DNA of 64,000 bases. Origin: Thioalkalivibrio sp. ALMg11 (lineage in GTDB: Bacteria; Pseudomonadota; Gammaproteobacteria; Ectothiorhodospirales; Ectothiorhodospiraceae). Of this stretch, positions 3,025-30,995 are shown piece after piece. The notes under the pieces are model-generated. The model had not been told where the DNA came from and did not search any database. It worked only from the letters and a program-made list of their open reading frames with translations. Where the stretch lies: NCBI RefSeq assembly GCF_000377905.1, contig NZ_KB898878.1, forward strand, positions 35,303 through 99,302, written 5' to 3'. Position 1 is the first letter of the stretch. Each line of letters begins with the position of its first letter. The position numbers were made by a program, and so were the translations under genes.

Positions 3025-3025
3025 C

Positions 3026-8933: not shown

Positions 8934-8945
8934 AGGTCAAGGCTT

Positions 8946-9137: not shown

Positions 9138-9204
9138 CGGGGGCAGGTCCGTCCGCGTGTTGAGCGCGAGCGGGCCTGTACATTCAGATCTTGGGAGTAC
9201 CACG

Positions 9205-9417: not shown

Positions 9418-9440
9418 CGCTCCACAGACCTTCCGTCCAG

Positions 9441-9472
9441 AAAAGGCCCGGCGCATTCGCCCCGGGCCTTTT
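9441..9472 (+). terminator. Intrinsic terminator after the YjfB-type gene
   Basis: AAAAGGCCCGG and CCGGGCCTTTT form the arms around a ten-base loop. The A-run and T-run make it work on both strands, so it can also end transcription of the yceI operon's antisense side. Confidence 0.85.
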
Positions 9473-9546
9473 CCGTTGTCGGATCTGTATCTCCCTGACT
9501 CACCAACCCGTCAGCCGCCCACTCCTCCCGTAGACCCGCTTCGAAG

Positions 9547-9624
9547 TTCTCCGTGTCCTCTGTGCCCTCCGTGGTGCAACCCGCCCTTGATCTTTCTTCG
9601 CGCCTTCGTGAGCTTCATGGTGAA
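9547..9624 (-). repeat. CACGAAG/CACGGAG dispersed repeat, right arm
   Basis: This is the inverse counterpart of 8946-9016: TCTCCGTGTCCTCTGTGCCC...CTTCGCGCCTTCGTG...TTCATGGTGAA. The intervening spacer TGCAACCCGCCCTTG is also the complement of the left arm's spacer, so the pair could fold into a long imperfect stem. Confidence 0.7.
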
Positions 9625-9642
9625 TCCAGGTAGAGGTAGGCG

Positions 9643-15426: not shown

Positions 15427-16827
<1,401 letters not shown>

Positions 16828-16871
16828 CCCGCCTCCTTTTCTTGTTGGAGGGGCCGACGGAAGCGGTGCGG

Positions 16872-16966
16872 TGTTGCAACATCCGGGGCCACCTGCAACA
16901 CCCCCGGTATGGCCCGTTTCGCCAATCCCTGCCCCGGTTATAGCGCGAAACGGGGGTGTTGCAACA
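16872..16966. promoter_or_regulatory. TGTTGCAACA palindromes, candidate activator binding sites
   Basis: The perfect ten-base palindrome TGTTGCAACA occurs at 16872-16881 and 16957-16966. A half site TGCAACA lies between them at 16894-16900. They sit in the 423-base space between the sigma-54 activator and the efflux operon, about 65 and 150 bases upstream of the -24 element, the usual enhancer distance. Confidence 0.7.
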
Positions 16967-17027
16967 GTCATTGTATGAATATCAGTAAATCCTAATTAAG
17001 TGATTGTTTTATAAGAAAGTCGATATA

Positions 17028-17045
17028 TTGGCATACACGTTGCTT
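17028..17045 (+). promoter_or_regulatory. Sigma-54 promoter of the efflux operon
   Basis: TTGGCATACACGTTGCTT has GG at 17030-17031 and GC at 17042-17043 with ten bases between, matching the TGGCAC-N5-TTGC consensus. Transcription would start near 17055, giving a leader of about 195 bases before the adaptor gene. Confidence 0.85.
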
Positions 17046-17250
17046 GTAGTTCGGCATGACTTCTTCTACTAATTGGGTAATGGACACCCGCCTCGGTCGT
17101 CAGTTGGCAGAACGCCCCCGCCATGCGGGCTTCGGCGCGGCGTGCCCCGGTGCCTGGCCAAGTGCGGCCATGCCCCCGATCCGAGAGCCTGCTCCCGAGT
17201 GGGCAGCACGGCCCGACCCCTTCTCCCATCGCGGCGTTCGACGCGAGGTA

Positions 17251-18468
17251 ATGACGATTATGGTTGCGCGAGTTTCCCGACTCTTCCTGGCCCGCACCCT
17301 CCTGGGTATCGCACTGGCCCTGCCGCTGTTCGGCATCTCGGCGGCCCAGGCTGCTGGTCCCATCCTCACGGTGGAGCCGGATCAGGCGGCCACCCAGACC
17401 GTTAGTGGCACGGTGGTCCCCTATCGCGAAGTCACCCTGACCGCGCAGTCCGCGGGACGCGTGGTGGATGTGGCTGGCGCCGAGGGCGATCGCTTCGAAC
17501 AGGGCGCAGTGCTGGTCGCGATTAGCGACGACCGGCTGCGCGCCCAGCGCCAGGCGGCCGAGGCCGAGATGCGCACCGCCGAGGCCGCGATCCGCGAGGC
17601 CCAGATGCAGTACGGCCGCGAGATGGTCTCGCCGCAGTCGCGCAACATCGGCCAGATGCCGGGCATGGGGGTGCCGTCGATGTTCGACCAGATGTTCACC
17701 CAGCCGATGGGCCAGGTCATGGGCATGGGCGATCCCGCGCTGGACCGGCGCACCGATCTCTATTCCCGCTACATCGGCGTGGATCAGGCGCAGGCGCGCT
17801 GGGAGCAGGCCCGGGCACAGGTTACGGAACTGGACGCGGCGATCCGCGACACCCGCTCCGAGGCGCCCTTCGATGGCCTGGTGATGCACAAGCATGTGGA
17901 AGAGGGCGATACCGTCCAGCCCGGTCAGCCGCTGGTGAGCTTCGGCCATGTCGAATTCCTGCGCGTCGAGGCCCAGGTGCCGGTGCGGCTGGTGAGCGGC
18001 CTGCAGGAAGACGACTACGTGCAGGTGCGGCTGGATACCGGTGACGAAGTGGAGGCCCGGGTCGCCCGGATCTTCCCCCTGGCCGACCCGCAACGGCACA
18101 CCGTTACGGTCAAGTTCGACCTGCCGCAGGGCGTGCGCGGTGGCCCGGGTATGCATGCGGCGGTGCATCTGCCGCAGGGCGAGGTTTCCGGCAACCGGGT
18201 CGTGATCCCGCGTTCGGCATTGATCCCGGGCGGCGCCTTGCCGCGCGTGGCCGTGCTGGATGGCGAGGGCCACGTACGAGTGCGCATGGTGCGCCTGGGT
18301 GGCGGACGCGGCGACCAGGTGGTGGTGACTTCCGGGCTGGAGCCGGGCATGCAGATCCTCGCCCAACCGGGCGCGGGTGTGCGTTCCGGCCAGCCGGTGG
18401 GGGGCGGTTCTCCGGATGCGGGCGTCGGTCGCCGCGACGGCGCCACGGACCCCTGGAGCCGCATGTAG
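17251..18468 (+). CDS. RND efflux periplasmic adaptor (HlyD/MFP family)
   Basis: This 405-residue membrane-fusion protein has a signal peptide (hydrophobic residues about 12-32, ending AAQAA), then barrel-sandwich halves (VVPYREVTLTAQSAGRV and the later RSEAPFDGLVMHKHVEEGDTV), a helical hairpin and a C-terminal membrane-proximal part. The hairpin region carries an unusual Met/Gly insertion (about residues 135-160, with SMFDQMF and MGQVMGMG) that could bind soft metals, an inference. ATG at 17251 has GAGG very close; ATG at 17260 has better spacing and may be used. It precedes the RND pump gene by 129 bases and lies under the sigma-54 promoter. Confidence 0.87.
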   Translation: MTIMVARVSRLFLARTLLGIALALPLFGISAAQAAGPILTVEPDQAATQTVSGTVVPYREVTLTAQSAGRVVDVAGAEGDRFEQGAVLVAISDDRLRAQRQAAEAEMRTAEAAIREAQMQYGREMVSPQSRNIGQMPGMGVPSMFDQMFTQPMGQVMGMGDPALDRRTDLYSRYIGVDQAQARWEQARAQVTELDAAIRDTRSEAPFDGLVMHKHVEEGDTVQPGQPLVSFGHVEFLRVEAQVPVRLVSGLQEDDYVQVRLDTGDEVEARVARIFPLADPQRHTVTVKFDLPQGVRGGPGMHAAVHLPQGEVSGNRVVIPRSALIPGGALPRVAVLDGEGHVRVRMVRLGGGRGDQVVVTSGLEPGMQILAQPGAGVRSGQPVGGGSPDAGVGRRDGATDPWSRM

Positions 18469-18524
18469 GGATCCATACCCGGCTGCAGGCCGGGGATAAC
18501 AGCGCCGGTTGCTGCCCCTGGCAG

Positions 18525-18561
18525 GTGCACCGGTGACGACGCGCCGGCCGAACCGGTGCAC
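18525..18561 (+). other. Intercistronic inverted repeat between adaptor and pump genes
   Basis: GTGCACCGGT (18525-18534) and ACCGGTGCAC (18552-18561) are perfect arms around a 17-base loop. With no T-tract it is not a terminator; it may stabilise or partly separate the two messages. Confidence 0.5.
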
Positions 18562-18597
18562 GGGACGCCAGACTGACAACAGGACTGTTCAAGCTCG

Positions 18598-21500
18598 ATG
18601 GCCGAAGACGACAAACAATCCGATACCGGTTTCCGGAAGAAACACGGCGATCCCGGCATTGCCGGGCGTATGGCGGCGGCCTTCATCCATTCGCCGCTGT
18701 CGTCGCTGCTCCTGATCGCCAGTATCGCGATCGGCATCCTCGGCCTGATGGTCACCCCGCGCCAGGAGGACCCGCAGATCTCGGTGCCGATGGTGGACAT
18801 CATGGTGTCCTACCCGGGCGTCCCCTCGGAGCAGGTGGCGAGCCTGGCGGCACGGCCGCTGGAGCGACTGATGAGCGAGGTCACCGGGGTAGACAACGTC
18901 TACTCCGCGTCGCATCGCGGCGAGGCGATGGTGACCGTGCAGTTCGACGTCGGCGAGGACATGGAGTCCTCCATCGTCAAGGTGCACGACAAGCTGATCG
19001 CCAATCGCGACCTGATGCCGCCCGGCGTCAGCGAGCCAATGGTCAAGGTCAAGGGTGCGGATGACGTGCCGGTGCTCAACCTGACCTTCTGGTCGCACGA
19101 GGTGGACGACGCCTTGTTGCGCCAGATCGCGCTGGATGCGCAGCAGCAGCTGAACGAGGTTCCCGATGCCAGCCAGAGTTTCGTGGTCAGCGGGCGCGAA
19201 GAACGCCTGCGCATCGATGTGCTGCCGGAGCGCCTCGCGGGCTATGACATCAGCCTGGATGACATCGCCCAGGCCGTGCAGTCCGCAAATGTCGAGGGCG
19301 CGGCCGGGCGCATCGAGAGCGGGGGTCTGAGCACCGCGGTGTACACCGGGCGTTTCTTCACCGGCGCCGCGGATCTCGAGCAACTCCTGATCGCGGTCAG
19401 TGATGGCCAGCCGGTCTATCTGCGCGATGTGGCCGAGGTGACCTACGGCCCGGGCGATCTGGAGCGGTTCGTGCGCCACTACTCCGGTCCGGCCGCACCC
19501 GAACCGGATGCGGCCCCGGAGGGCGCGGCGGCGGTCACGCTGGCCATTGCCAAGAAGTCGGGCAGCAACGGGGTGACCGTCGCCAATGACGTACTCGAAC
19601 GCCTCGAGCGCCTGAAGGGCAGCGTGATTCCGGACAACGTCGAGGTGGCGGTTTCGCGGAACTACGGCAAGTCCGCCAACGAGAAGGTCAACGAGCTTCT
19701 GTTCAAGCTGTTCATCGCCACCTTCGCGGTGACCATCCTGGTCGGCCTGTTCCTGGGGATTCGTGCCGCGGTCGTGGTGCTGATCGTGATCCCGGTGGTG
19801 ATCCTGTTCACCGTGTTCAGCGCCTGGCTACTGGGCTACACCATCGATCGCGTCAGCCTGTTTGCGCTGATCTTCTCCATCGGCATCCTGGTCGATGACG
19901 CCATCGTGGTGGTGGAGAACATCTATCGGCGCTGGCTGATGAAGCGCGGCATCGATACCGAGACCACGGTGGATGCGGTGCGCGAGGTCGGTAACCCGAC
20001 CATCCTGGCGACGTTCACGGTCATTGCGGCCCTGCTGCCGATGGGTTTCGTCTCCGGGATGATGGGTCCGTACATGCAGCCGATCCCGGTGCTGGGCTCC
20101 GTGGCCATGCTGTTCTCGCTGGTGGCGGCATTTGTATTTACCCCGTGGCTGACTCAGCGCCTGCGCCCGAGCATGGCGTATCTGGAGAAGGCCACCGACA
20201 AGGAACATCGCCAGGCGGAAAAGCTGGGCCGGTTCTACCGCACGGTGATCCCGGGGCTGGCCGACAACCGGGTGCGAGGCTACGCATTTCTGATCGCTGT
20301 CATCGTGATCTTCTTCCTGATGGTCAGCCTGTTCATGACCACCGACGTCCGCGTGAAGATGCTGCCCCTGGACAACAAGCCCGAGTTCCAGGTGATGGTG
20401 AATTTCCCCGAGGGCACGGCCCTGACCGAGACCGCCACGCTGAGCCAGGACATGGCCGGCATCCTGCGCGAGATGGACGAGGTGGTGGCCTTGCAGTCCT
20501 ACGTCGGGACCGCTTCGCCGTTCAATTTCAACGGTTTGGTGCGGCACTACTACCTGCGCAACGAACCCTGGCAGGGTGACATCCAGGTTCAGCTGGTGGA
20601 CAAGGGCGACCGCAGCCGGACTTCGCACGAAATCGCCACCGAGGCGCGCGAACGCCTGACCCCGCTGGCCGAGGCCGCCGGCGCGCGTATCCAGGTGGTC
20701 GAGATGCCGCCGGGTCCGCCGGTGCTGCAGTCGATTGTCGCCGAGATCTATGGCCCTGACGCTGCCACCCGCCGCGCGGTGGCCCGCGATCTCGAGGGCA
20801 TGTTCGCCGGTGCCGAGCACGTGGCCGATGTGGACAGCTTCCTGCAGGCGCCACACAACGTCTGGCACTTCGATGTGGAGCGTGACAAGGCGCTGCGCCG
20901 TGGCGTGACCGTGGAGACCATCAACCGAACCCTGGAGACCGCGCTCAGCGGGCAGGTCCTGGGCGACGTGAAGGCACAGTCGCTGGTCGAGCCGCACCTG
21001 ATCGAAATGCGCCTGCCGATGGCGACGCGCAATGACATTCGGCAGCTGGAGATGTTGCCGATCTCCACCCGCCAGGGCGGGTCGATCCCGCTGGCCGAGC
21101 TGGGCGAGTTCGTCCAGCGCCCGCAGGACGAGCCGATCTACCACAAAAACCTGCGCCCGGTGGAGTACGTGACCGGCGAGGTGGTCGGGCGTCTGGCCGC
21201 GCCGGTCTACGGCATGCTGGAGGTTCAGGAGCAGCTGGAGGACTACCGTCTTCCGGATGGCAGCCAGGTGCAGCCGCACTGGCTGGGGCCGCCGCCCAAT
21301 GATGGCTCGACCGCCTTCGAGTGGGCCGGCGAGTGGACGGTGACGTACGTGACCTTCCGCGACATGGGGATCGCCTTTGCGATCGCGCTGATCCTGATCT
21401 ACATGCTGGTGGTCTGGGAGTTCGGGAATTTCGTGCTGCCGGGCATCATCATGGCCCCGATCCCGCTGACGCTGATCGGCATCATTCCCGGCCACTGGTT

Positions 21501-22875
21501 GATGAACGCCGAATTCACTGCGACCTCGATGATCGGTTTCATCGCGCTCGCGGGGATTATTGTCCGAAACTCGATCCTGCTGGTGGACTTCGGTCGTCAG
21601 GCAGTGGATCAGGGGCACGACGTGCGCGACGCGATGATCCTGGCCTGCCAGGCGCGTACCCGTCCGATCATCATTACGGCTCTGGCCTTGCTGGCCGGCT
21701 CCAGCGTGATCCTGTTCGATCCCATCTTCCAGGGTATGGCGATCTCGCTGATGTTCGGCACCGTCGTGGCCACTTTGCTGACCCTGCTGGTAATCCCGCT
21801 GGGCTGCATTTCCGGACGCCGCGCCTTCTGCCCGACCAGCCTGAACGAGGACGGTGCGCCCACGGCGGGCTGTGGCGATGGCAATGGCAATGGCCATGCT
21901 GTGCATGCCGGTGTGACGGCCAGCGCGACCCAGGGTGTGTCTCCGGGGGCATCCGGAGGGGGGGATGACCTGTTTGGCCCGCGCGAGGGCGGGCCGGTCA
22001 CCCAGGTCGTGCAATACGCGGGGCTCTATCTCAAGTGCCTGGTCGTGGCCTTCATCGAGGGCCTGCGCGATCTGGCGCTCGCCCTGGGGCGCCTGATCCG
22101 GTCCTTCATTGAACGCCGTCGCAATGGCGATGGCGGCCCCCCGCCGCCCAGCGGTGGATCGGGCGGTCCCTCCGCCGGGCCTGGCGGGCCGACGGGCGGT
22201 GCCCCGGGGGGCGGTGGCGCGTCGGGCACGGGTTCCGGCGGGGCTGCGGCGACTCCGCAGTCCCGTTCGAAACACCCGTCAGCTGACTCGAAGCCATCGG
22301 GCCCTGTTGCGCAGGCACCCGAGTCGACCGGCACCCCAGAGCCAGAGGCCTCCACGCCCGCCACCGGGAATGCCGGAGCCCAGGACGCCGGTGCCGCGTC
22401 GTCCAGCCGCACTCAGGCTGTGAAGCCCGACTCCCCCGCCGCGGGGACCGCAAAAGAGGCGGCCCCCTCCAGGACCACGTCCCGCGCCGGGGCAGGCAAG
22501 ACCGCATCGAATATCCCGGTCGGGTCGCGTGCCGGGAAGGCCGGCTCCACGCGGGGTGCTGGCGATACCGCCGAGGCGAAGGCTACGAAGAAGTCGCCAG
22601 CGGGCACCTCGGTAAGCGCGAAGGACAAGCCCACCGCAGCCGCGAGCAAGACCTCCGGCGGCACATCCGCGTCCGGTGGCGCCACCAAAGGACGTGCAAG
22701 CAGCACCAACAAGGACACGCCGAAGGCGTCCAACAAGAAGATCGGGGGGACGAGCAAGACCGGCACCACGAGCAGCAAGACCGGCCGCAAGGACAGCGGC
22801 AGTACCCCCAGGGCGAGCGGCAAGTCGGGTACACCCGGCAAGGGCCGCACCCGACGTGGGATTCGACTCAAGTGA
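18598..22875 (+). CDS. RND efflux pump subunit with a long disordered cytoplasmic tail
   Basis: This 1425-residue protein is far longer than the usual 1020-1060. Residues 1-1080 are a complete RND permease of the AcrB/HAE-1 class: N-terminal segment, two periplasmic loops, and the proton-relay helix FSIGILVDDAIVVVENI with the Asp-Asp pair. After the last membrane helix (VIPLGCISGRR, about residue 1075) come a short His/Gly/Asn stretch, an amphipathic hydrophobic segment (about 1141-1171) and about 250 residues of Gly/Pro then Lys/Ser/Thr/Ala-rich, strongly basic, low-complexity sequence. The reading frame and stop are intact. Substrate unknown. It is followed after 31 bases by a sulfur-globule-like gene. 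The ribosome site is weak (AGGA 13 bases upstream). Confidence 0.9.
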   Translation: MAEDDKQSDTGFRKKHGDPGIAGRMAAAFIHSPLSSLLLIASIAIGILGLMVTPRQEDPQISVPMVDIMVSYPGVPSEQVASLAARPLERLMSEVTGVDNVYSASHRGEAMVTVQFDVGEDMESSIVKVHDKLIANRDLMPPGVSEPMVKVKGADDVPVLNLTFWSHEVDDALLRQIALDAQQQLNEVPDASQSFVVSGREERLRIDVLPERLAGYDISLDDIAQAVQSANVEGAAGRIESGGLSTAVYTGRFFTGAADLEQLLIAVSDGQPVYLRDVAEVTYGPGDLERFVRHYSGPAAPEPDAAPEGAAAVTLAIAKKSGSNGVTVANDVLERLERLKGSVIPDNVEVAVSRNYGKSANEKVNELLFKLFIATFAVTILVGLFLGIRAAVVVLIVIPVVILFTVFSAWLLGYTIDRVSLFALIFSIGILVDDAIVVVENIYRRWLMKRGIDTETTVDAVREVGNPTILATFTVIAALLPMGFVSGMMGPYMQPIPVLGSVAMLFSLVAAFVFTPWLTQRLRPSMAYLEKATDKEHRQAEKLGRFYRTVIPGLADNRVRGYAFLIAVIVIFFLMVSLFMTTDVRVKMLPLDNKPEFQVMVNFPEGTALTETATLSQDMAGILREMDEVVALQSYVGTASPFNFNGLVRHYYLRNEPWQGDIQVQLVDKGDRSRTSHEIATEARERLTPLAEAAGARIQVVEMPPGPPVLQSIVAEIYGPDAATRRAVARDLEGMFAGAEHVADVDSFLQAPHNVWHFDVERDKALRRGVTVETINRTLETALSGQVLGDVKAQSLVEPHLIEMRLPMATRNDIRQLEMLPISTRQGGSIPLAELGEFVQRPQDEPIYHKNLRPVEYVTGEVVGRLAAPVYGMLEVQEQLEDYRLPDGSQVQPHWLGPPPNDGSTAFEWAGEWTVTYVTFRDMGIAFAIALILIYMLVVWEFGNFVLPGIIMAPIPLTLIGIIPGHWLMNAEFTATSMIGFIALAGIIVRNSILLVDFGRQAVDQGHDVRDAMILACQARTRPIIITALALLAGSSVILFDPIFQGMAISLMFGTVVATLLTLLVIPLGCISGRRAFCPTSLNEDGAPTAGCGDGNGNGHAVHAGVTASATQGVSPGASGGGDDLFGPREGGPVTQVVQYAGLYLKCLVVAFIEGLRDLALALGRLIRSFIERRRNGDGGPPPPSGGSGGPSAGPGGPTGGAPGGGGASGTGSGGAAATPQSRSKHPSADSKPSGPVAQAPESTGTPEPEASTPATGNAGAQDAGAASSSRTQAVKPDSPAAGTAKEAAPSRTTSRAGAGKTASNIPVGSRAGKAGSTRGAGDTAEAKATKKSPAGTSVSAKDKPTAAASKTSGGTSASGGATKGRASSTNKDTPKASNKKIGGTSKTGTTSSKTGRKDSGSTPRASGKSGTPGKGRTRRGIRLK

Positions 22876-22906
22876 ACATACAAGCAAGACCTCCAGGAGG
22901 TTCGCA

Positions 22907-23659
22907 ATGAAGAAGCGTTTCAATTCCCGAATGATCGGTACCACGCTGGCCAGTGCCGCCGTGGCATCCGTGCTGGCCCTGGGCGTCGCCCAGGCCCAGG
23001 AACAGGGTCAGGGCTACGGCCAGGGTCCGGCGATGGGCCAGCAGGGCCCGGTGCCCGGTCCCTACGGGCATGCCCCGTACGGCTCCGGCATGGGCGCACA
23101 TCCCGGTGGCGGGATGATGCAGCAGCGCGAAGGCTCCGGTGACTTCAGCTTCGGCATGTCCGGGCGCAGCCAGGGGCAGGGCTACGGTCGCGGCCACGGT
23201 GACGGGTACGGCCAGGGCTATGGCCGCGGCCATCAGGGCTACGGTCCGGGCTACGGCCGGGGGTATGGCCCGGGGTATGGCCCGGGTTACGGCCCCGGTC
23301 CGCAGCAGGGCGGCTTTGGCCACCCGGGCATGATGCAGCCGGGCTATGGCATGCAGCAGCGCCCGGGCTACGGGCAGATGCCGGAGTTCGATCCGGACAA
23401 CCTGCCGGAAGACATGCCGGAAGAGATGCGCGAGCGCATCCAGGCCCAGCACGCCGAGCGCCAGGAGCGCATGGAAGAAATGAAAGCCATGCGCGAGCAG
23501 CGTATGGAAGAGATGGAAGCCATGCGCGAAGCGCGCCAGAAGGCCATGGAAGCGGGCCGTGCGGCGTACGAGGAAGAGATGGAGCGCCATATGGAGACGA
23601 TGCAGGAGCGTCGTGGATCCATGCAGGGTGAATCCACACAGGAAGAAGGCGACTACTGA
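22907..23659 (+). CDS. Exported Gly-Tyr-rich sulfur-globule-like protein with Met/Glu helical tail
   Basis: This 250-residue protein has a signal peptide (residues 1-29, ending GVAQAQ) and an AGGAGG ribosome site. Residues 31-165 are GYG/GPGYG/GQGYG repeats containing the short motif DFSFGMSGR, similar to DFSASGRGR in the third gene of the set. Residues 170-240 are a charged helix rich in Met, Glu and Arg (EEMKAMREQRMEEMEAMREA) that probably forms a coiled coil. Sulfur-globule proteins of purple sulfur bacteria are exported Gly/Tyr-rich polypeptides that coat intracellular periplasmic sulfur; the repeat section fits, the helical tail is extra. It lies 31 bases after the RND gene. Confidence 0.7.
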   Translation: MKKRFNSRMIGTTLASAAVASVLALGVAQAQEQGQGYGQGPAMGQQGPVPGPYGHAPYGSGMGAHPGGGMMQQREGSGDFSFGMSGRSQGQGYGRGHGDGYGQGYGRGHQGYGPGYGRGYGPGYGPGYGPGPQQGGFGHPGMMQPGYGMQQRPGYGQMPEFDPDNLPEDMPEEMRERIQAQHAERQERMEEMKAMREQRMEEMEAMREARQKAMEAGRAAYEEEMERHMETMQERRGSMQGESTQEEGDY

Positions 23660-23705
23660 TCCGCGGATCAGTAATCGCATGCCGACGGGCGCTGGTGCCC
23701 GTCGG
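23655..23705 (+). other. Two perfect palindromes after the first globule-like gene
   Basis: ACTGATCCGCGGATCAGT (23655-23672) is an 18-base perfect palindrome that overlaps the stop codon. CCGACGGGC-N6-GCCCGTCGG (23682-23705) follows. Neither has a T-run. They may set message stability between the first and second globule-like genes. Confidence 0.5.
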
Positions 23706-23733
23706 AGTGGAACTCAGACGGAGGCAGTTCGCC

Positions 23734-24180
23734 ATGCAGGGCAGGCAGTCCGGTCAACCGAAACGCAGGCGGGTCAGAAACGCCCCGATACTCGGGGTAT
23801 TGCTGGCCACGGGGTTTCTTTTGCCGGCCGCCGACCTGGCGGCGAGTGATCGCCAGAACCCCTGGGCCTCCGGTACGCCGGAGGTGCAGCGGTCGGCACC
23901 CGAGCGTCCTCGAGGGCGCTTCCCCGATCGCGATTACGACCCGTCACGGCGGGACGAATCGCGGGAGACGCCGGCACAGGGGTCGCAGCAGGCTCCACCG
24001 TACCGCGGCTACGCGCCGTACGGCCCGTATGGGGTGCCGCCGGGGGCTCCGTCGTTCCACACCCCCGGCGGGATGCCGGGGGGCTATCCATACGGGTATC
24101 CGGGGCAGTCCGGTTACCCGGGCATGGGCGGGCCGTCTTCGGTCTTCCCTTGGGGGATGGGTGGTTTCCCGTTCCCCTGA
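23734..24180 (+). CDS. Exported Pro/Gly/Tyr-rich protein
   Basis: This 148-residue protein opens with a basic leader (KRRRVRN) and a hydrophobic segment (about residues 16-33, ending ADLAAS), a signal peptide or anchor. The mature part is polar and Arg/Asp-rich to residue 80, then Pro/Gly/Tyr-rich (YAPYGPYGVPPGAP, GGYPYGYPGQSGYPGMGG) with an aromatic end, GMGGFPFP. GGAGG lies nine bases before the ATG; a longer frame from 23695 has no such site. It sits between two globule-like genes and is likely a surface or globule-coat protein. It has no cysteine and no enzyme motif. Confidence 0.6.
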   Translation: MQGRQSGQPKRRRVRNAPILGVLLATGFLLPAADLAASDRQNPWASGTPEVQRSAPERPRGRFPDRDYDPSRRDESRETPAQGSQQAPPYRGYAPYGPYGVPPGAPSFHTPGGMPGGYPYGYPGQSGYPGMGGPSSVFPWGMGGFPFP

Positions 24181-24261
24181 TCAGTAAAGCGTGCATTCGG
24201 GAAGCCCTCCCCGCGTGGACGTATTCGATTCGAGGGCATGACTCCTTCAGGAGGTAGCACC

Positions 24262-24702
24262 ATGAACAAGCTCGTCAAAGCAGCAGTTCTCGCCGTTTCC
24301 CTGGGTGGCCTGGCCGCCCCGATGATGGCGTCCGCCCAGTGGGGCGGACCCGGCTACGGGTATGGCCCCGGCTCCTATGGCCCGGGCTACGGTTACGGCC
24401 CGAGCATGCCGTTCTTCGGTGGCCCCGGTTATGGCTCCGGTCGGAACTACGGGATGGGCGACATGATGGGCGACATGATGGGCGACGGTAACTTTGACTT
24501 CTCCGCCAGCGGTCGTGGCCGCGGCCACGGTTACGGTCAGGGCTATGGCGACGGCCGGGGTTATGGTCAGGGTTACGGCCATCCAGGCTACGGCTATGGT
24601 CCGGGCTACGGCTACGGTCCGGGTTACGGCCCGCAGGGCTACGGTCCTCAGGGCTATGGCCCGCAGGGTCAGATGCCGCAGCAGCAGGGTCAGGGCAACT
24701 AA
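24262..24702 (+). CDS. Sulfur-globule-family protein, Gly-Tyr-rich, exported
   Basis: This 146-residue protein has a signal peptide (residues 1-26, ending MMASAQ) and a perfect AGGAGGT site. The mature protein is built from GYGYGPG, GYGQGYG and GPQGYGPQ repeats, with one non-repeat island [26 protein letters not shown]. The composition, signal peptide and [11 protein letters not shown] motif agree with sulfur globule proteins that form the envelope of stored sulfur in the periplasm. A strong terminator follows directly, so it closes the globule-gene transcript. Of the three it is the closest to the known family. Confidence 0.75.
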
Positions 24703-24717
24703 GTCCTGCCTCAGTTC

Positions 24718-24750
24718 GGGCCTGCCCGGTGTCGGGCAGGCCCCTTTTTT
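24718..24750 (+). terminator. Strong intrinsic terminator
   Basis: GGGCCTGCCCG, a four-base loop and CGGGCAGGCCC form an 11-pair stem followed by C and six T. It separates the efflux/globule genes from the ParA-to-DsrE2 run. Confidence 0.93.
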
Positions 24751-24760
24751 CCGGAGCAGT

Positions 24761-24795
24761 GCGGATTGGCGGATTGCTCGTAGCCGCCAATCCGC
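24761..24795. promoter_or_regulatory. Inverted repeat with tandem GCGGATTG directly upstream of the ParA gene
   Basis: GCGGATTGGCGG (24761-24772) and CCGCCAATCCGC (24784-24795) are perfect 12-base arms. The left arm is also part of a tandem GCGGATTG GCGGATTG. It ends 19 bases before the ParA start codon, where it could act as an operator or as a centromere-like site; the function is inferred. Confidence 0.5.
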
Positions 24796-24814
24796 AATGC
24801 TCGAAGGAGACGCC

Positions 24815-25459
24815 ATGCAGACCGTCGTCGCCAATCTGAAAGGTGGTACCGGCAAGAGTACTGTGGCCTTTAACCTGGCCCTGTGGTTGCTGGAGGGGCG
24901 CCGTCGCGCCCTGACCGTGGATCTGGATCCGCAGCGGACCCTCAGCGATGTGCTGGAGGTGCGCCACGAGGAAGGCTACCAACCCGCGCTGGACGGGGTG
25001 AGTGATCTCGATGCGGTCCGCTCCCGGGCGGGCGATTACGACGAAGTGCTGATCGATGTCGGCGCCTCGGACATGGCCTCGCTGATGACCGCGGTGGAGG
25101 GCGCAGACCGCGTGCTGATCCCGGTCCCGCCCAGCCAGGCGGACGTCTGGTCGACTTATCGCTTCGTTCAGCGCATCCAGGATCAACGGGGGTCGCGTGA
25201 TCGTCCCGAGATTCTGACATTCATCAATCGCGCCGATACGCACCAGACTGTGCGCGAGACCGACGAGACGCACGAGGCGCTGCAGCAGATCGAGGGGGTC
25301 CGCTTGCTGAAGCCGCGGCTGAAGCAGCGCATGGCCTTTCGCCGCTCCTTCAGCGAGGGGCTTTCGGTGCGCGAACTGGAGCCCCGCGGCAAGGCCGCTG
25401 CCGAGCTGGATGCCCTGGCTGTCGCCGTGTTCGGGCGCAGTCGCCGCAAAAAACAATAA
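24815..25459 (+). CDS. Orphan ParA/MinD-type ATPase
   Basis: This 214-residue P-loop ATPase has a deviant Walker A at its very start, KGGTGKST (residues 9-16), the DLDPQRTLSDVL switch region (about 41-52), and VLIDVGASDMAS as Walker B. It has no N-terminal DNA-binding extension, as in McdA- or VirC1-like small ParAs. Such proteins position plasmids, chemosensory arrays or protein organelles on the nucleoid or membrane. No parB gene is nearby. AAGGAG lies before the ATG, and an inverted repeat lies just upstream. It starts a run with DUF302, coiled-coil, dynamin-like and DsrE2 genes, which suggests positioning of a cell-envelope or sulfur structure (inference). Confidence 0.85.
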   Translation: MQTVVANLKGGTGKSTVAFNLALWLLEGRRRALTVDLDPQRTLSDVLEVRHEEGYQPALDGVSDLDAVRSRAGDYDEVLIDVGASDMASLMTAVEGADRVLIPVPPSQADVWSTYRFVQRIQDQRGSRDRPEILTFINRADTHQTVRETDETHEALQQIEGVRLLKPRLKQRMAFRRSFSEGLSVRELEPRGKAAAELDALAVAVFGRSRRKKQ

Positions 25460-25510
25460 TGTGTCGCGTCCGGTGATCACCGGACGGCGGGCACCGAGCA
25501 GGAGAGCTTC

Positions 25511-26098
25511 ATGCGCTTCATACGCAATGCTTTGGTCGTGATCGGGTTGCTGGCACTGATTGGCGTGGGATATGCCATTTTTGCCTTCGAGCCCTACCTG
25601 AGTCAGGTCCGCTCGCTGGATTCGCAGGCGCCCAAGGTCTATTCGCAGATGGCCCGCACGGTGCTGGAGACCGGCGATGCCGCGGAGGCCATGGTCTACA
25701 AGCGCAAGGTGGACGAGGGCCTGGCGGTCGAGGATGTCGAGGATATTCTGCGCCTGGTGGCCAACGAGCTGAATATCCGCAACGTCGGCGAACTGCCGAT
25801 GGGCGAGGAGGTACGCAGCGTTACCGGGGAGGACTTTCCGTTCCTGAAGATCTATATGTTCTGTGATGTGGCGATTGCAGCGCAGATGGTTCGCCACAGC
25901 CCGGCGATGGCTGCGTATCTGCCGTGCCGGATCGTGCTGCAGGAGGATGCCGAGGGCAATCTGTGGCTGATGACGCTGGATCTGGACCCGATGATCCACG
26001 GAGGGCGCCCGCTGCCCGAGGATCTGCGCGAGCAGGCCGTGTTTGTGAAGGAATCACTGGAGGAAATCATTGACCGCGCCGCCGTCGGCGCCTTCTGA
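25511..26098 (+). CDS. Membrane-anchored DUF302 protein
   Basis: This 195-residue protein has an N-terminal membrane anchor (about residues 7-27), a helical linker, and a C-terminal DUF302-like domain: IYMFCDVAIAAQMVRHSP (about 115-132), then YLPCRIVLQED and GNLWLMTLDLD. DUF302 genes are frequent in sulfur oxidisers, but their activity is not established. Two cysteines (in MFCD and LPCR) stand about 27 residues apart. AGGAGAG lies eight bases upstream of the ATG. It is 51 bases after the ParA gene, within the same run. Confidence 0.75.
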   Translation: MRFIRNALVVIGLLALIGVGYAIFAFEPYLSQVRSLDSQAPKVYSQMARTVLETGDAAEAMVYKRKVDEGLAVEDVEDILRLVANELNIRNVGELPMGEEVRSVTGEDFPFLKIYMFCDVAIAAQMVRHSPAMAAYLPCRIVLQEDAEGNLWLMTLDLDPMIHGGRPLPEDLREQAVFVKESLEEIIDRAAVGAF

Positions 26099-26142
26099 CG
26101 GGGGCATCGAACCCGTTTCCATGCATCGACAAAGGGCGTTCA

Positions 26143-26664
26143 ATGAGTGACGAGAGTAACAGTGATTTCAACGAGGTCCGCGACGAGGCGGACAAGGCGG
26201 ATGCCCGCTCGCGGCGTGTGGAGCTGATTGTGTACGCTGCCCTCCTGGCCTTCGTGGTTCTGGCCATCTATGGCTTCTGGCTGATCACGAGCCTGACTCG
26301 GGACGTTAGTCAGCTGACCCAGGAGATCGCCCAGATGACGCGGGTGGTGGACCGCGACATGTCCACCATCGCCGGGCACATGGCCTCGATGGACCACCAG
26401 ATGACCGACATCAACAACACCATGCGGGTCATGAACGAGGAAGTCGCGGCGATCGCGGGAAATACGCACTCGATGGACGCCAACATCGGCTCGATGACGC
26501 GCGATACCAGCGTGATGGCTGGCGCGATCACGGGCATGCAACAGGACATGTGGAGTCTGAATCGCAATGTGGGGGCGCCCATGGGTATGATGAACATGTT
26601 CAACCCATTCACCGATCAGAGCGGTCCGGTCCGGGGTTCGCCGGGGCCGTATTACCCGCGCTGA
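26143..26664 (+). CDS. Single-span membrane coiled-coil protein with a Met-rich end
   Basis: This 173-residue protein has a charged N terminus, one membrane segment (about residues 29-50) and a long heptad-like helix (52-145) with a Met roughly every seven residues (DMSTIAGHMASMDHQMTDI and similar). A conserved-looking tail, NVGAPMGMMNMFNPF, comes near the end, then Pro/Gly. It resembles the helical part of a chemoreceptor but lacks the signalling hairpin, so a chemotaxis label would be wrong. The tail recalls the Met-rich insertion of the efflux adaptor at 17251. It lies between the DUF302 and dynamin-like genes. Function unknown. Confidence 0.65.
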   Translation: MSDESNSDFNEVRDEADKADARSRRVELIVYAALLAFVVLAIYGFWLITSLTRDVSQLTQEIAQMTRVVDRDMSTIAGHMASMDHQMTDINNTMRVMNEEVAAIAGNTHSMDANIGSMTRDTSVMAGAITGMQQDMWSLNRNVGAPMGMMNMFNPFTDQSGPVRGSPGPYYPR

Positions 26665-26691
26665 TCACGTTTTTCGACTGACGGAGTCCGC

Positions 26692-28257
26692 ATGTTCAAT
26701 CGTCCAGGCCCTCGGGTACGCAAGCAGCTCAAGCTGCTCAGCGACCGCCTTGCCGAAGAGAATCCGGTCCTGAAAGGGGTGGTCGACCCCTTCCGTGATC
26801 TGGACCGGGTCGGTTATGCGGCCGGTCTGCTGGATCCCACCGAAGATTCCTACGCCTTCACCATCTCCTGGTGGCCGATGATCGCCATGCTGGGGACGTT
26901 CTCCGCTGGCAAGTCCACCTTCATCAACGAATACGTGGGCATGACTGTGCAGCGCAGCGGTTCGCAGGCGGTAGACGACAAGTTCACCGTGATCAGCTAC
27001 GGCGGCAGCGAGCACGTGCAGGAGCTGCCCGGGCTCGCGCTGGACGGCGATCCGCGCTTCCCGTTCTACCGCGTATCCGACGAGATCGAGCGGATCACCG
27101 ACGGCGGCGGGCGTACGGTGGATCATTTCCTGGCGATGAAGACCGCGCGCTCGGAGCAGCTGCGCGGGCGCATCATCATCGACTCTCCCGGGTTCGACGC
27201 CGACGAGCAGCGCGCGACGATCCTGCAGCTGACCGACCACATCATTGATCTGTCCGACCTGGTGCTGGTGTTCTTCGATGCCCGCCACCCGGAACCGGGT
27301 GCGATGCGCGACACCCTGGAACACCTGGTCAATCGCGTGGCCGAGCGCAACGACTTCACCAAGCTGGTGTTCATCCTCAACCAGATCGACACCACCTGGC
27401 GCGAGGACAACCTGGAAGAGGTCGTGTCGGCCTGGCAGCGTGCGGTGGTGCGCCAGGGCAATGCCACCGGGCGTTTCTACTGCCTGTACAACGAGAGTGC
27501 GGCGGTCGAGATCGGCGACCCGCAGGTGCGCGCCCGCTACGAGGAAAAATCCCGGCGCGACCGCCAGGAGATCCACGCCAAGATCCAGGAGATCAGTTCC
27601 TCGCGTTCCTACCGGATCCTTGGCTCGCTGCAGGCGATCGCCGAATCCATCGAGATGGACGTCATGCCGGCGCTGCAACGTGCGCTCGAGCGCTGGCGCC
27701 GCCGTGTCGTGCAGTTCGACGCCGGGATGTTCGCGGTCGTCGCGGTGATCCTGGGTCTGATTGGCTATCAGTGGACCGGTGGCGTTGCCCCGTGGACCGA
27801 TGGCAGCGTCTGGCAGTCCATGGGCGACCGCCCGCTGCTGACGGTGTTCGGCATCGTGGTGCTGGCGATCGTGCTCGGCGGGATTCACTTCTTCAATCGC
27901 CGCTGGCTGGCGCGCCGTATCGCACGGACGCTGCCGACCGAGACCCCCGCCGGTAACTGGCGCGCGGCCTTCGAGAAGAACACGCGGCCCTGGCGCCCGA
28001 TGATGGGGCGTGCACCGCTGGGTCTGGGGCGGCGCATGATCGGCCGCCTGCATCAGCTGCGCGACCGCGCCGAGGCTTATATCCAGCGCCTGAACAACCA
28101 GTTCGTGGATGCCAGCCCGGTCTCGCGCCAGGGTGGGCGGGCCTCGGCCACCGATGTCTACGACCCGAAGGAGCCGGAATCCCCGGCCCCCGATCCGACG
28201 CCGGGCACGGATGCGCCCCGCGATTACGCCGAGCCGGAGGCGCCGGAGAAGCGCTAG
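26692..28257 (+). CDS. Dynamin-like GTPase, membrane-associated
   Basis: This 521-residue protein has a dynamin-superfamily GTPase domain: G1 GTFSAGKST (about 67-75), a candidate G2 threonine in the DDKFTVISYGG region, G3 DSPG (about 164-167) and G4 NQID (about 230-233, in place of NKxD). A helical stretch follows, then two hydrophobic segments (about 345-362 and 381-401) and a basic region, and the last 50 residues are acidic and Pro-rich. EHD-like architecture suggests membrane binding or remodelling. A GGAG site precedes the ATG. The gene lies in the ParA-to-DsrE2 run, so the membrane it acts on may be linked to the globule-like proteins (inference). Confidence 0.82.
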   Translation: MFNRPGPRVRKQLKLLSDRLAEENPVLKGVVDPFRDLDRVGYAAGLLDPTEDSYAFTISWWPMIAMLGTFSAGKSTFINEYVGMTVQRSGSQAVDDKFTVISYGGSEHVQELPGLALDGDPRFPFYRVSDEIERITDGGGRTVDHFLAMKTARSEQLRGRIIIDSPGFDADEQRATILQLTDHIIDLSDLVLVFFDARHPEPGAMRDTLEHLVNRVAERNDFTKLVFILNQIDTTWREDNLEEVVSAWQRAVVRQGNATGRFYCLYNESAAVEIGDPQVRARYEEKSRRDRQEIHAKIQEISSSRSYRILGSLQAIAESIEMDVMPALQRALERWRRRVVQFDAGMFAVVAVILGLIGYQWTGGVAPWTDGSVWQSMGDRPLLTVFGIVVLAIVLGGIHFFNRRWLARRIARTLPTETPAGNWRAAFEKNTRPWRPMMGRAPLGLGRRMIGRLHQLRDRAEAYIQRLNNQFVDASPVSRQGGRASATDVYDPKEPESPAPDPTPGTDAPRDYAEPEAPEKR

Positions 28258-28353
28258 GGGTAGGCATGGTGCCTCCTCCTGCGCCGGCTCGCAGCAACCA
28301 GCACGATCAACGGGCGCGGTTACCGGCCGCAAACGTTGTGCAGGAGGAGAACG

Positions 28354-28497
28354 ATGACCATACTGGCGTGGCTTATGTTCGCGCTGGCCATGATCCTGGT
28401 GCCCATCTCGGTATGGGCCAGCATGGCGGCGCTGGGGGTTTGTGCCGGTTGTGCACTGATCCGCGACTGGCGCAGGGGGCGTCAGGCGTCGGAGTAG
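28354..28497 (+). CDS. 47-residue membrane peptide with CxxC
   Basis: This is a short gene. An ATG with AGGAGGAG five bases upstream opens a 47-codon frame: a hydrophobic N-terminal two thirds (one or two membrane spans, residues 2-35) containing VCAGCAL, then a basic tail RDWRRGRQ that should face the cytoplasm. The two cysteines form a CxxC pair at the membrane boundary. It lies between the dynamin-like gene and DsrE2, 97 and 101 bases from them. The strong ribosome site and conserved-looking topology argue that it is real, but no homologue is recognised. Confidence 0.6.
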   Translation: MTILAWLMFALAMILVPISVWASMAALGVCAGCALIRDWRRGRQASE

Positions 28498-28597
28498 TAG
28501 GCCGGCCAACCCACGGGCTTTAACCAACTGGGGACGGATTGCGCGCAGGGGGCTGTGGCGGATCCGGTTCCTGTTACCACTGGAGGAGAAAGTAGAA

Positions 28598-29068
28598 ATG
28601 AGTGATCAAAAGAAGATGGCCATCATTGCCACGAAGGGTAGCCTGGACTGGGGTTATCCGCCCTTCATCCTGGCCTCCACGGCGGCCGCCCTGGGCTACG
28701 ACTGCGAGGTGTTCTTTACCTTCTACGGCCTGCAGCTGCTGCGCAAGAAGCTGGATCTTCAGGTGACCTCGCTGGGCAATCCGGGCATGCCGATGCCGAT
28801 GCCCATGCCGGTGCTGCTGCAGGCCCTGCCGGGTATGCAGAAGATGATGACCGTGATGATGAAGAAAAAGATGGCGGCGAAGGGCGTCTCCGATCTGGGC
28901 GACCTGCGCGATCTGTGCATTGAGGCCGAGGTACGCATGATCGCCTGCCAGATGACGGTGGACCTGTTCGACATGGACACCAGCGAATTCATCGACGACG
29001 TGGAATACGCCGGGGCGGCCGCGTTCTTCGAGTTCGCCGGCGAGTCCGATATCTGCCTGTTCATCTGA
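28598..29068 (+). CDS. dsrE2: DsrE2-family sulfurtransferase-like protein
   Basis: This 156-residue protein of the DsrE/DsrF superfamily, DsrE2 branch, has the start KMAIIATKGSLDWGYPPFILASTAA-type block, the VFFTFYGLQLLRKK strand and helix, a distinctive PGMPMPMPMPVLLQALPGM segment (about 62-80), and RMIACQMTVDLFDM with the conserved cysteine near residue 117. DsrE2 proteins work with TusA and rhodanese in cytoplasmic sulfur trafficking toward the oxidative Dsr or sHdr systems; neither partner gene is nearby. GGAGGAG lies nine bases before the ATG. It ends the ParA-led run, and a terminator follows. Confidence 0.88.
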   Translation: MSDQKKMAIIATKGSLDWGYPPFILASTAAALGYDCEVFFTFYGLQLLRKKLDLQVTSLGNPGMPMPMPMPVLLQALPGMQKMMTVMMKKKMAAKGVSDLGDLRDLCIEAEVRMIACQMTVDLFDMDTSEFIDDVEYAGAAAFFEFAGESDICLFI

Positions 29069-29095
29069 ACCGGCGGCGCGCCAGGCGCGCCCATC

Positions 29096-29129
29096 AAGGC
29101 CCCGCAGCATCGCGCTGCGGGGCCTTTTT
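29096..29129 (+). terminator. Intrinsic terminator after DsrE2
   Basis: AAGGCCCCGCAG and CTGCGGGGCCTT are perfect 12-base arms around a seven-base loop, followed by a T-run. It also has an A-run on the 5' side, so it can serve the convergent acyl-CoA synthetase gene. Confidence 0.93.
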
Positions 29130-29192
29130 CGTTTTTGGAGGTTATTTCCGGCGGGTCAAAGGCCGTTTCGTGGTGGATAAGAAGCGAAAAGA

Positions 29193-30995
29193 TCAGTCGT
29201 GGCCGGCGTACATGGCCTCGATGGCGTTGGCGTAGTGCTTGGTAATGACCGGGCGCTTGAGCTTCATGGTCGGGGTCAGCATGCCGTTGTCCACTGACCA
29301 GGGTTCGTGCACCACGTGTACGTGGCGGATCCTGGCGTAGCCGGGAAAGTCGCGTAGCTGGTACTGCATGCGCTGGAGCAGGGCGCGCTCGGTGGCGCGC
29401 GACAGGCGTCCGGCGGCACTGGGGTCGAGGTCGTGGTCCTCGGCGAAGGTCGCCCAGGCCTCGGGTTCGGGGACGACCAGGGCGGTCAGGAAGGCGTGGC
29501 TGTCGCCGACCACCATGACCTGATCGAACAGGGCATCCAGGGCGATGGCCATCTCCATGTCCGCCGGCGGGACCTTCTCGCCGTTGGTCAGTACGAGGAT
29601 ATCCTTCAGGCGTCCGGTGATGAAGATGCGGCCATCGTCGTCGATTCTGGCCTGGTCCCCGCTATGCAGCCAGCGATCTTCGTCGATCGTGTTCTCGGTC
29701 GCTTCCTTGTTTTTCCAGTAGCCGAGCATCACGCTGCTGGAACGGGTAAGCAGCTCGTCCATCTCGCCGATCTTCACCTCGATACCCGGCAGGGGTTTGC
29801 CAATGGAGGCGGGCAGGTTGTCGTCCGGGGTGTTCAGGCTGACCACCGGGCTGGCTTCGGTCATGCCGTAGCCATGCAGCACCGGCAGGCCCAGGCCGAT
29901 GAAGAAACGCCCAATCGGCGGCGGCAGCGGGGCGCCCCCGCAAACGGCGAAGCGCAGCTTGCCGCCCAGGCGGTCCAGCACCTTGTGCGCGACGATGCGC
30001 TCCAGCAGTGGCCACAGCAGGAATCCGGGGGACCAGGACGCGCGGCCCTGCTGGTACTCGAAGCGGCGCCAGCCGATGGTCACCGTGGCCTTGAACAGGC
30101 CGCGGCCGATGGCGGATTTCTGCTTCAGGCCGGCCTGGATGCGGCCATGCACGCGTTCGTAGATGCGCGGTACCGAGATCAGCACGGTGGGCTGCACGGA
30201 CATCAGGTCTTCGCCCAGACCCTGGATGGAGCGCGCGAAGGCGACCTCGGCGCCGACCAGCATGGGCATGTAGTAGCCGCCCGTGCGCTCCATCATGTGC
30301 GACAGCGGCAGGAAGGACAGGAAGCGGTCGGCATCCGACAGTGGCCCGGCGCTGGAGGAGGCGCTGGCGTTGTCGAGGATGTTGCGGTGCGACAGCATCA
30401 CACCCTTGGGCCGGCCCGTGGTGCCGGAGGTAAACACGATGGTCGCCAGGGCTAGCGGGTCCAGGTCCGGGCGGTGCACGCGGTCGGGGTCGCCGCGCTC
30501 CAGCCAGGTGTCGATGTTCAGCACCCGCGGGTCGTCGGGCTCGCCTTCGGTGTGGCCCAGGCAGACGATGCGCTTGAGCGAGGGCATGTTCTCGAAGTGT
30601 TCGGACAGGCGGCGGTTGTGCACGCTCTCCCCCAGCAGGAGCAGGCGCGCCTGGGTCTGGCCGATAATGTAGGCGACGTTGTCGGGGCGGTCGTCGGTGT
30701 ACAGCGGCACGGTGATCAGGCCCAGCTCGGTGGCGGCCTGGTCGAGGGCCACCCATTCGCGCGAGTTGCCGAGCATCAGCGCGACGCGTTCCCCGGGCTT
30801 GAAGCCTTCCCGGGCCAGCGCGGCCTGCCAGCGATCCACCATCGCGGCCATTTCGCCCCAGGTGGTCTGCTTCCATGTTTCGTCGGCGGCGCTGAAGTGG
30901 CGATAGGCCGGGGCATCCCGACTCATGGACACACGGGTGCGGAACAGCGCCGGCAGGGTGGGGGCCTGCTCCGGGGTGATAGTGGTCGACGACAT
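29193..30995 (-). CDS. AMP-forming long-chain acyl-CoA synthetase
   Basis: This 600-residue adenylate-forming enzyme activates a fatty acid to acyl-AMP and then to acyl-CoA. The P-loop motif is TIVFTSGTTGRPKGVMLSH (about 187-205), the A5 motif GYGMTEASPVV lies near 371, and the hinge reads GDQARIDDDGRIFITGRLKDILV near 450-472 with the catalytic Lys region after ML.PTMKLKR. The long insertion (about 285-345) is typical of the FadD15/AAE15-like long-chain group rather than E. coli FadD. GAGG precedes the ATG. It appears monocistronic, with a terminator shared with DsrE2 downstream. Confidence 0.9.
   Translation of the reverse strand: MSSTTITPEQAPTLPALFRTRVSMSRDAPAYRHFSAADETWKQTTWGEMAAMVDRWQAALAREGFKPGERVALMLGNSREWVALDQAATELGLITVPLYTDDRPDNVAYIIGQTQARLLLLGESVHNRRLSEHFENMPSLKRIVCLGHTEGEPDDPRVLNIDTWLERGDPDRVHRPDLDPLALATIVFTSGTTGRPKGVMLSHRNILDNASASSSAGPLSDADRFLSFLPLSHMMERTGGYYMPMLVGAEVAFARSIQGLGEDLMSVQPTVLISVPRIYERVHGRIQAGLKQKSAIGRGLFKATVTIGWRRFEYQQGRASWSPGFLLWPLLERIVAHKVLDRLGGKLRFAVCGGAPLPPPIGRFFIGLGLPVLHGYGMTEASPVVSLNTPDDNLPASIGKPLPGIEVKIGEMDELLTRSSSVMLGYWKNKEATENTIDEDRWLHSGDQARIDDDGRIFITGRLKDILVLTNGEKVPPADMEMAIALDALFDQVMVVGDSHAFLTALVVPEPEAWATFAEDHDLDPSAAGRLSRATERALLQRMQYQLRDFPGYARIRHVHVVHEPWSVDNGMLTPTMKLKRPVITKHYANAIEAMYAGHD

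Follow-up and report, generated by a model that had tools for sequence, protein, structure and literature searches.

A candidate sulfur-globule assembly locus with ParA-type and dynamin-like genes in Thioalkalivibrio sp. ALMg11 and other Gammaproteobacteria

The placing, spacing, enclosing and inheritance of periplasmic sulfur globules raise the question of which gene products carry out each step, the coat proteins being the parts described so far. A locus of Thioalkalivibrio sp. ALMg11 offers candidates for each of these steps. It lies within a stretch of 64,000 nucleotides (contig NZ_KB898878.1, positions 35,303 to 99,302; hereafter the window, whose own numbering is used below), where genes located beside those of globule coat proteins may encode the machinery by which sulfur storage bodies are made and positioned. 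Comparison of genomes supports a conserved unit of coat-type proteins, a resistance-nodulation-division (RND) permease with its periplasmic adaptor (membrane fusion protein, MFP), a ParA-type ATPase, and membrane-anchored tetratricopeptide-repeat (TPR), DUF302 and coiled-coil-like (CC) proteins; this unit tracks sulfur-globule proteins and is usually accompanied by a dynamin-like GTPase (DLP). The link to sulfur globules is strong at the level of gene content, and the locus is very probably a sulfur-globule locus. As a whole, it is probably best explained as a sulfur-globule assembly locus of sulfur-storing Gammaproteobacteria endowed with the machine proposed below.

All nine plus-strand open reading frames (ORFs) listed in an earlier, sequence-only reading of the window were found, as were its two intrinsic terminators, both on the plus strand (24718-24743 and 29096-29126). 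The first three ORFs encode exported proteins with signal-peptide-like hydrophobic N termini, as judged from hydropathy only: SGP1 (22907-23659), Gly/Gln-rich with a charged C-terminal part resembling a coiled coil; SGP2 (23734-24180), Pro/Gly-rich with an NPW motif; and SGP3 (24262-24702), a Gly/Tyr-rich sulfur-globule protein of family PF17228. SGP3, composed of 34% Gly and 12% Tyr, passes the PF17228 cut-off (E 4e-8, 34.3 bits vs 26.7). SGP1 scores under it (15.8 vs 26.7 bits), profile search gave no Pfam match for SGP2, and both contain 6% Tyr. Past the first terminator lie genes for the ParA-type ATPase (24815-25459; 214 residues), the membrane-anchored DUF302 (25511-26098) and CC (26143-26664) proteins, the DLP (26692-28257), a membrane peptide of 47 residues (28354-28497) and DsrE2 (28598-29068). 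ParA matches several P-loop families in profile searches, and its nearest solved relative is ParF (E 8e-14). Its KGGTGKST sequence is a deviant Walker A motif with the signature lysine, in which K9, G10, G11, G13, K14, S15 and T16 are invariant in 32 of 32 aligned rows. The DUF302 protein (Pfam DUF302, E 9e-15) contains two invariant Cys, and a structure search returned five chains of the same fold, over E 0.001, none with known function. The 47-residue peptide, traced within the genus only, shares 79-100% identity with the relatives encoded at 19 genus loci. DsrE2 belongs to the NCBIfam equivalog NF047629 (285 bits vs a cut-off of 210, E 1e-85) and is the sole match to its family in this genome, which also contains two soxB genes and a weak dsrA match (E 2e-13).

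The unit is wider than nine genes, as the MFP, RND, TPR and sigma-54 activator genes belong to it. SGP1 starts only 31 bases past the stop codon of the RND permease gene (18598-22875, plus strand), whose product combines an ACR_tran core (residues 26-1068; Pfam E 1.5e-153) with a low-complexity C-terminal tail of 357 residues. The HlyD-type adaptor (17251-18468, plus strand; RND_mfp, E 1e-49) precedes it, and divergent to the adaptor gene lies that of the sigma-54 activator (15427-16827, minus strand; Sigma54_activat, E 3e-66), an AAA+ protein with a Fis-type helix-turn-helix and a weak PAS domain. Past the activator, the TPR gene (14660-15319, plus strand) shows a weak Pfam TPR match (E 0.02); TPR is clear in its relatives, which in other species sit between ParA and DUF302/CC. 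One N-terminal hydrophobic helix each was detected by hydropathy in the TPR, DUF302 and CC proteins and in the 47-residue peptide. A candidate sigma-54 promoter (17029-17044, plus strand) matches TGGCAT-N5-TTGC with one mismatch. Under a relaxed pattern, 7 of 7 genus loci examined have a similar site upstream of MFP, and the activator adjoins MFP also in genomes G012 and G022; over the whole window, however, matches to the sigma-54 pattern were as many as expected by chance, with no enrichment. A sigma-70 promoter scan of 16500-29300 gave no match, nor did Rfam and tRNA scans of the window.

The gene order in the genus is MFP-RND-SGP1-SGP2-SGP3-ParA-(TPR)-DUF302-CC-DLP-peptide-DsrE2. Among 19 genus loci scored, some of them short of flank, DsrE2 adjoins the DLP in 19, exported low-complexity ORFs are found in 18, CC in 15, ParA and RND in 14 each, DUF302 in 13, and TPR and MFP in 12 each. 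Furthermore, the order MFP-RND-exported Gly/Tyr proteins-ParA-TPR-DUF302-CC-(DLP) recurs in other families across Gammaproteobacteria. Because the order is kept in most genus loci and recurs in other families, the arrangement is not due to chance. The conserved core thus consists of RND/MFP, the exported low-complexity proteins, ParA, TPR, DUF302 and CC. The exported proteins differ much between families; calls of such proteins by low-complexity composition miss members, and the motif classes used for them were chosen after their sequences had been inspected. In many families, the gene directly preceding ParA encodes an exported protein of some 255 residues that weakly resembles DUF4412, under the cut-off (L098, 3763-4560, and relatives); 29 such ORFs were scored across loci, none of them in the window.

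The gene set of the sequence-only reading covered part of this core, but its left border was too narrow, as MFP and RND belong to the unit. The nine genes as the whole unit were rejected, since the neighbourhoods reveal a larger core and the DsrE2-DLP pair occurs only in the Thioalkalivibrio-type genus (19 of 19 loci) and in genome G125. Likewise, among 84 loci DsrE2 is linked to the DLP in three, those of the window, G020 and G125. DsrE2 next to the DLP is a lineage addition, and with an adjacency so limited it does not provide the general link to sulfur chemistry.

Does the unit follow sulfur storage? A set of 369 evenly drawn gammaproteobacterial genomes contains 92 with the DLP, spread over 68 of 271 genera. 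Of these 92, 75 have dsrA and/or DsrE2 (at E 1e-40 or better), vs 85 of the 277 genomes without the DLP. PF17228 was found in 56 genomes, one of them scoring under the curated cut-off, and all 56 have DsrE2 or dsrA. The DLP is present in 51 of these 56 vs 41 of the 313 genomes without PF17228 (both, 51; DLP only, 41; PF17228 only, 5; neither, 272). The association persists within the 160 genomes with DsrE2 and/or dsrA (51, 24, 5 and 80 in the same order) and over their 76 families (26, 12, 1 and 37). As single genomes are not independent observations, better guides are the count by family and the within-family contrast given below; the tie is partly physical, PF17228 genes lying inside the locus in several genomes. 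The table for ParA leaves out the 272 genomes without either gene and covers 74 of the remaining 97: 41 have both ParA and PF17228, 10 ParA only, 3 PF17228 only and 20 neither, or 41, 9, 3 and 8 among DsrE2/dsrA carriers. The claimed tie to sulfur storage thus held, the DLP and ParA tracking sulfur-globule genes in many families. An occurrence of these genes mostly in genomes without globule proteins or DsrE2, which had been named as contrary to it, is not what we found: 41 of the 92 DLP genomes have no PF17228, but 75 have DsrE2 and/or dsrA, and PF17228 is present in 41 of the 51 genomes in which ParA was found.

The window's family, Ectothiorhodospiraceae, provides the within-family contrast. 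Of its 47 genomes, 28 of the 30 belonging to the window's genus have the DLP, as does one from a different genus. Another 16 genomes, from three further genera, gave neither a DLP nor a PF17228 match over the cut-off, while 12 of them have DsrE2 over the cut-off. ParA is absent from 15 of these 16; the exception, G043, has a divergent ParA beside a PF17228 match under the cut-off. Across the 37 family genomes with known ParA status, 16 have ParA and PF17228, 2 have ParA only, none has PF17228 only, and 19 have neither. Five genus genomes gave no PF17228 match (G016, G017, G019, G024 and G039), four of them without ParA. G017 has ParA, and its SGP3 is 96% identical over 83 residues to that of the window; in G016, G019 and G024, two exported low-complexity ORFs are still located near the DLP. 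In G023, the DLP is on one contig, and ParA, SGPs, RND, DUF302 and CC are grouped with a second DsrE2 on another. None of the Ectothiorhodospiraceae studied in PMC8877833 stores sulfur inside or has sulfur-globule proteins, according to the part of that article available.

This contrast bears on whether the unit instead serves in sulfur oxidisers to secrete or anchor Gly/Tyr-rich proteins of the surface or matrix, as an envelope or sheath system, globules not being the cargo. The absence of a Pfam match for SGP2, the sub-threshold score of SGP1 and the divergence of the exported proteins between families would fit such a system, yet several genomes have PF17228 members within the locus itself, and family relatives without PF17228 mostly have neither ParA nor the DLP, the phototrophs of that family being described as excreting sulfur (PMC8877833, available part). 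A close comparison is with SgpA-D of Allochromatium vinosum, exported coat proteins like those found here, SGP3 being a PF17228 member. SgpD, which was located on globules by mCherry, may be a coiled-coil protein, and its gene has as neighbours a regulator gene and one for a hydrophobic/amphiphilic exporter (PMC10386293, available part), as SGP1 adjoins RND. In place and make-up, SGP1 resembles SgpD. In the available parts of the sources, no ParA, TPR, DUF302 or dynamin partner is named for A. vinosum. Altogether, we consider an envelope or sheath system quite improbable.

Which element, then, forms the core of the unit? The five PF17228 genomes without DLP among the 369 all have ParA, surrounded by RND, SGPs, TPR, DUF302 and CC as far as the flank reaches, and exported low-complexity ORFs were scored beside ParA in four of them. 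The DLP was therefore rejected as the core of the unit. DLP loci were scored in 89 of the 92 genomes (G168, G277 and G282 gave none), and 76 genomes had enough flank, defined as at least 3.5 kb upstream or the presence of ParA. In these 76 loci, ParA is linked in 35, ParA or CC in 42 (26 families) and neither in 34. The 35 ParA-linked genomes include 34 with DsrE2 and/or dsrA; the 35th, G341, has soxB, a gene for which only part of the genomes were searched. Conversely, ParA was not found in 12 searched DLP genomes without DsrE2/dsrA, four of them with soxB. Among 80 loci kept from a scan of further genomes, 9 of which repeat loci of the 369-genome set, ParA is linked in 43 of the 60 with enough flank, including those of Thiothrix, Cocleimonas and Thiodiazotropha. 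In the linked loci, ParA is encoded together with its presumed cargo genes. The DLP, proposed at first as part of a joint set with ParA, is separable from it. A sister genus displays another layout (L049, genome G046; features at 4455-5284, 8908-9525 and 9555-11021): the DLP adjoins rnc, with small DsrE-type and glycine-cleavage-H-type genes about 4 kb off, and its ParA and CC sit elsewhere in the genome.

The tail of the RND permease bears on how ParA could be connected to the rest. We compared 72 RND permeases whose C terminus is complete; at 97% identity they reduce to 69 distinct ones, because two locus sets overlap. The tail past the core has a median length of 239 residues. Outside the genus (55 distinct permeases), it reaches at least 40 residues in 52 and carries a net positive charge in 46; inside the genus, its charge ranges from -7 to +36. 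The motif RRGI(R/Q/K)LK closes the tail in 62 of the 72, no more than 20 residues from the end; in the window, RRGIRLK (22852-22872, plus strand) forms the last seven residues. The motif was found nowhere else in the tails (14,347 residues), nor in the last 35 residues of seven other scored gene products. The strict motif is present in 55 of the 59 distinct permeases with linked ParA; three others differ from it by one residue, and in L146 it lies downstream, outside the scored ORF. Since the loci in which the motif first caught our attention also supplied these first-set counts, the counts are no independent test; the second set, L276-L294, is exempt from this, and there the motif occurs in 8 of 9 loci with a scored RND. 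Over both sets, variants counted in, the motif accompanies ParA in 67 of 68 distinct loci. The 10 distinct permeases without linked ParA comprise five with the motif and five without it in six frames (L101, L105, L119, L204 and L216, three from one family); of the latter, G366 alone was searched genome-wide for ParA, and none was found. In L100 (RND 1851-5270, motif at 5506) as in L146 (RND 3103-6447, motif at 7360), the motif may have been displaced by a frameshift, by splitting of the gene or by an error in sequencing. The window also encodes, as read from its sequence, a further RND-like permease with an adaptor (56362-60803); this permease (56362-59550) has no tail motif.

RND termini are cytosolic, and ParA ATPases are stimulated by short basic peptides of partner proteins; for these two reasons, we propose the RND tail as the ParA partner and the motif as the contact. 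That ParA acts on the site of the locus through this tail has, on such co-occurrence, a little under even chances. Small ParA ATPases encoded beside a presumed cargo, as here, are known from the ParA/MinD positioners ParF, McdAB, ParC and FlhG (PMC10241942, available part), but unlike in those systems the cargo would be a sulfur-globule site and the partner a membrane pump tail. The same article indicates a ParA cargo in Halothiobacillus from gene neighbourhood, and ParA homologues have been suggested to place the carbonate granules of magnetotactic bacteria (PMC11773610, available part). The pump shares its ACR_tran core and HlyD-type adaptor with RND efflux pumps of the AcrB/MdtB type; unlike them, it scores under the NCBIfam cut-offs of named pumps and has the long tail ending in RRGI(R/Q/K)LK. 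The genes could also share regulation only, in a sulfide regulon under the sigma-54 activator whose members are co-expressed without forming one machine, RND exporting toxic sulfur species and ParA and DLP serving separate envelope tasks. The activator with its recurrent candidate promoter, the terminator between the SGP and ParA blocks and the separability of the DLP would all suit this explanation. Nevertheless, ParA, TPR and CC remain beside SGPs in genomes without the DLP, and regulation alone leaves the company of tail motif and ParA unexplained; we regard shared regulation as unlikely.

The DLP is the single match of its kind in the genome, so that it has no like partner. It matches Dynamin_N (E 3e-14) and has a C-terminal hydrophobic hairpin by hydropathy. 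The best fold match of its AlphaFold2 model (mean pLDDT 82) is EHD4 (E 6.7e-11, 16% identity), followed by bacterial DLPs and mitofusins, and EHD4 also comes first in a sequence profile search. The dynamin-superfamily fold is thus common to the DLP and to EHD proteins, BDLP, LeoA and IniA, from which it differs by the low identity of the match, the hairpin and the lack of a like partner. A LeoABC-type defence DLP was rejected, as the PADLOC LeoA and LeoBC models gave weak, partial GTPase matches (E 4e-5 and 1e-3). EHD proteins stabilise the necks of membrane pits. The globules of Beggiatoaceae sit in invaginations of the cytoplasmic membrane (PMC11172852, available part). Topologically, such a pocket is equivalent to an endocytic pit, and the DLP would sit on its cytosolic side. 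We propose, at somewhat less than even chances, that the DLP shapes such a membrane pocket.

The scan of further genomes detected at least 569 DLP relatives. Among the matches listed, hosts include Thiothrix, Cocleimonas, Sedimenticola, Thiodiazotropha, Thiohalomonas, Thiohalobacter and Thiolapillus, animal symbionts, three metagenome-assembled genomes (MAGs) labelled Magnetococcales and many other gammaproteobacterial MAGs. The DLPs of the three Magnetococcales-labelled MAGs (L189, L191 and L199) are 56-59% identical to the query; intracellular sulfur stores are also found in magnetotactic sulfur oxidisers. In several families, mreD, mreC and mreB follow the DLP on the opposite strand, as identified by Pfam (L090 and L091) or by protein cluster (L086-L088, L092, L094, L095 and L103), and genes resembling gatC-gatA-gatB were read from the sequence beyond them. 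This neighbourhood, together with the 17 DLP genomes lacking DsrE2 and dsrA, would suit a DLP that is a general envelope or cell-shape factor, tied to globules by descent. However, the DLP still tracks PF17228 within DsrE2/dsrA genomes (51/24/5/80), and the DLPs of DsrE2/dsrA-free genomes are scattered in a quick DLP tree, at least three changes being forced by supported branches, as losses of the context would produce. We deem a cell-shape role for the DLP rather unlikely.

Under the reading of a sulfur-globule assembly locus, we infer a machine that shapes or spaces storage sites, as first suggested for these genes. The RND-adaptor complex and the TPR, CC and DUF302 proteins would mark an inner-membrane site at which coat proteins would gather and sulfur be deposited in the periplasm. 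The cytosolic RND tail ending in RRGI(R/Q/K)LK would bind ParA and stimulate its ATPase, and nucleoid-bound ParA would space or segregate globule sites, like other ParA proteins with their cargo. On the cytosolic face of the globule pocket, the DLP would shape or close the neck, and DsrE2, where added, would take globule sulfur on the cytosolic side. In its boldest form, which we put forward tentatively and with more doubt than its parts, the proposal makes sulfur globules organelles with their own biogenesis and inheritance machine, in which the RND RRGIRLK tail would be the ParB-like partner of a dedicated ParA and an EHD-like dynamin would sculpt the periplasmic pocket in an endocytosis-like manner.

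Several observations weigh against this assembly-locus reading. Neither DsrE2 nor dsrA was found in 17 of the 92 DLP genomes; five of the 17 have soxB over the cut-off, four of which are also without ParA. The DLP is absent from 85 of the 160 DsrE2/dsrA genomes, and as a marker of all sulfur oxidisers it was rejected on this count. Three PF17228 genomes are without ParA (G186; G386, 85% complete; G134, 88% complete), and ten ParA genomes are without PF17228. A tree-controlled pair test of ParA and PF17228 was underpowered (5 pairs on supported branches, on average 3.4 the same way vs 0.1 the opposite way, median p 0.25), and that of ParA against DsrE2/dsrA, with too few pairs, shows nothing (1.7 vs 1.0). 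As to the tail, the contact between ParA and the motif is a guess from co-variation. The RND of G043, the one exception in the second set, has ParA and no motif, and five motif-bearing RNDs are without a neighbouring ParA: in G061 ParA lies elsewhere, in G134 it was not found, and the other three were unsearched. In A. vinosum, sgpD seems to be transcribed on its own, the gene following it shows no sulfur regulation, and an sgpD mutant still forms globules (PMC10386293, available part). SUP05 bacteria, which have four putative sgp genes and form globules in the periplasm, are stated to possess no dynamin in their genomes (PMC6509183, available part). Finally, Tv. paradoxus is said to store sulfur inside unlike other Ectothiorhodospiraceae (PMC5328954, available part), yet the DLP is present in 28 of 30 genus genomes.

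The sequence-only reading knew of no described system with this gene set, and our literature search, mostly judged from listings and with most subscription journals outside its scope, turned up none and nothing tying ParA or dynamin to sulfur globules. Papers containing both "sulfur globules" and "ParA" gave, in their available parts, no ParA role in globules: one proposes ParA-like placing of carbonate granules, others use the term in a different sense, and the rest concern other topics according to their titles. If the proposal is true, sulfur globules would join the cargo of ParA proteins, an RND pump would be a ParA partner, and a bacterial dynamin would gain a role in a storage organelle. 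Furthermore, the locus may serve as a genomic marker of sulfur storage in uncultured bacteria.

Elsewhere in the window, 37521-41426 encodes a response regulator-PAS-GAF-GGDEF-EAL protein of 1301 residues, with a PAS histidine kinase nearby (34958-37057).

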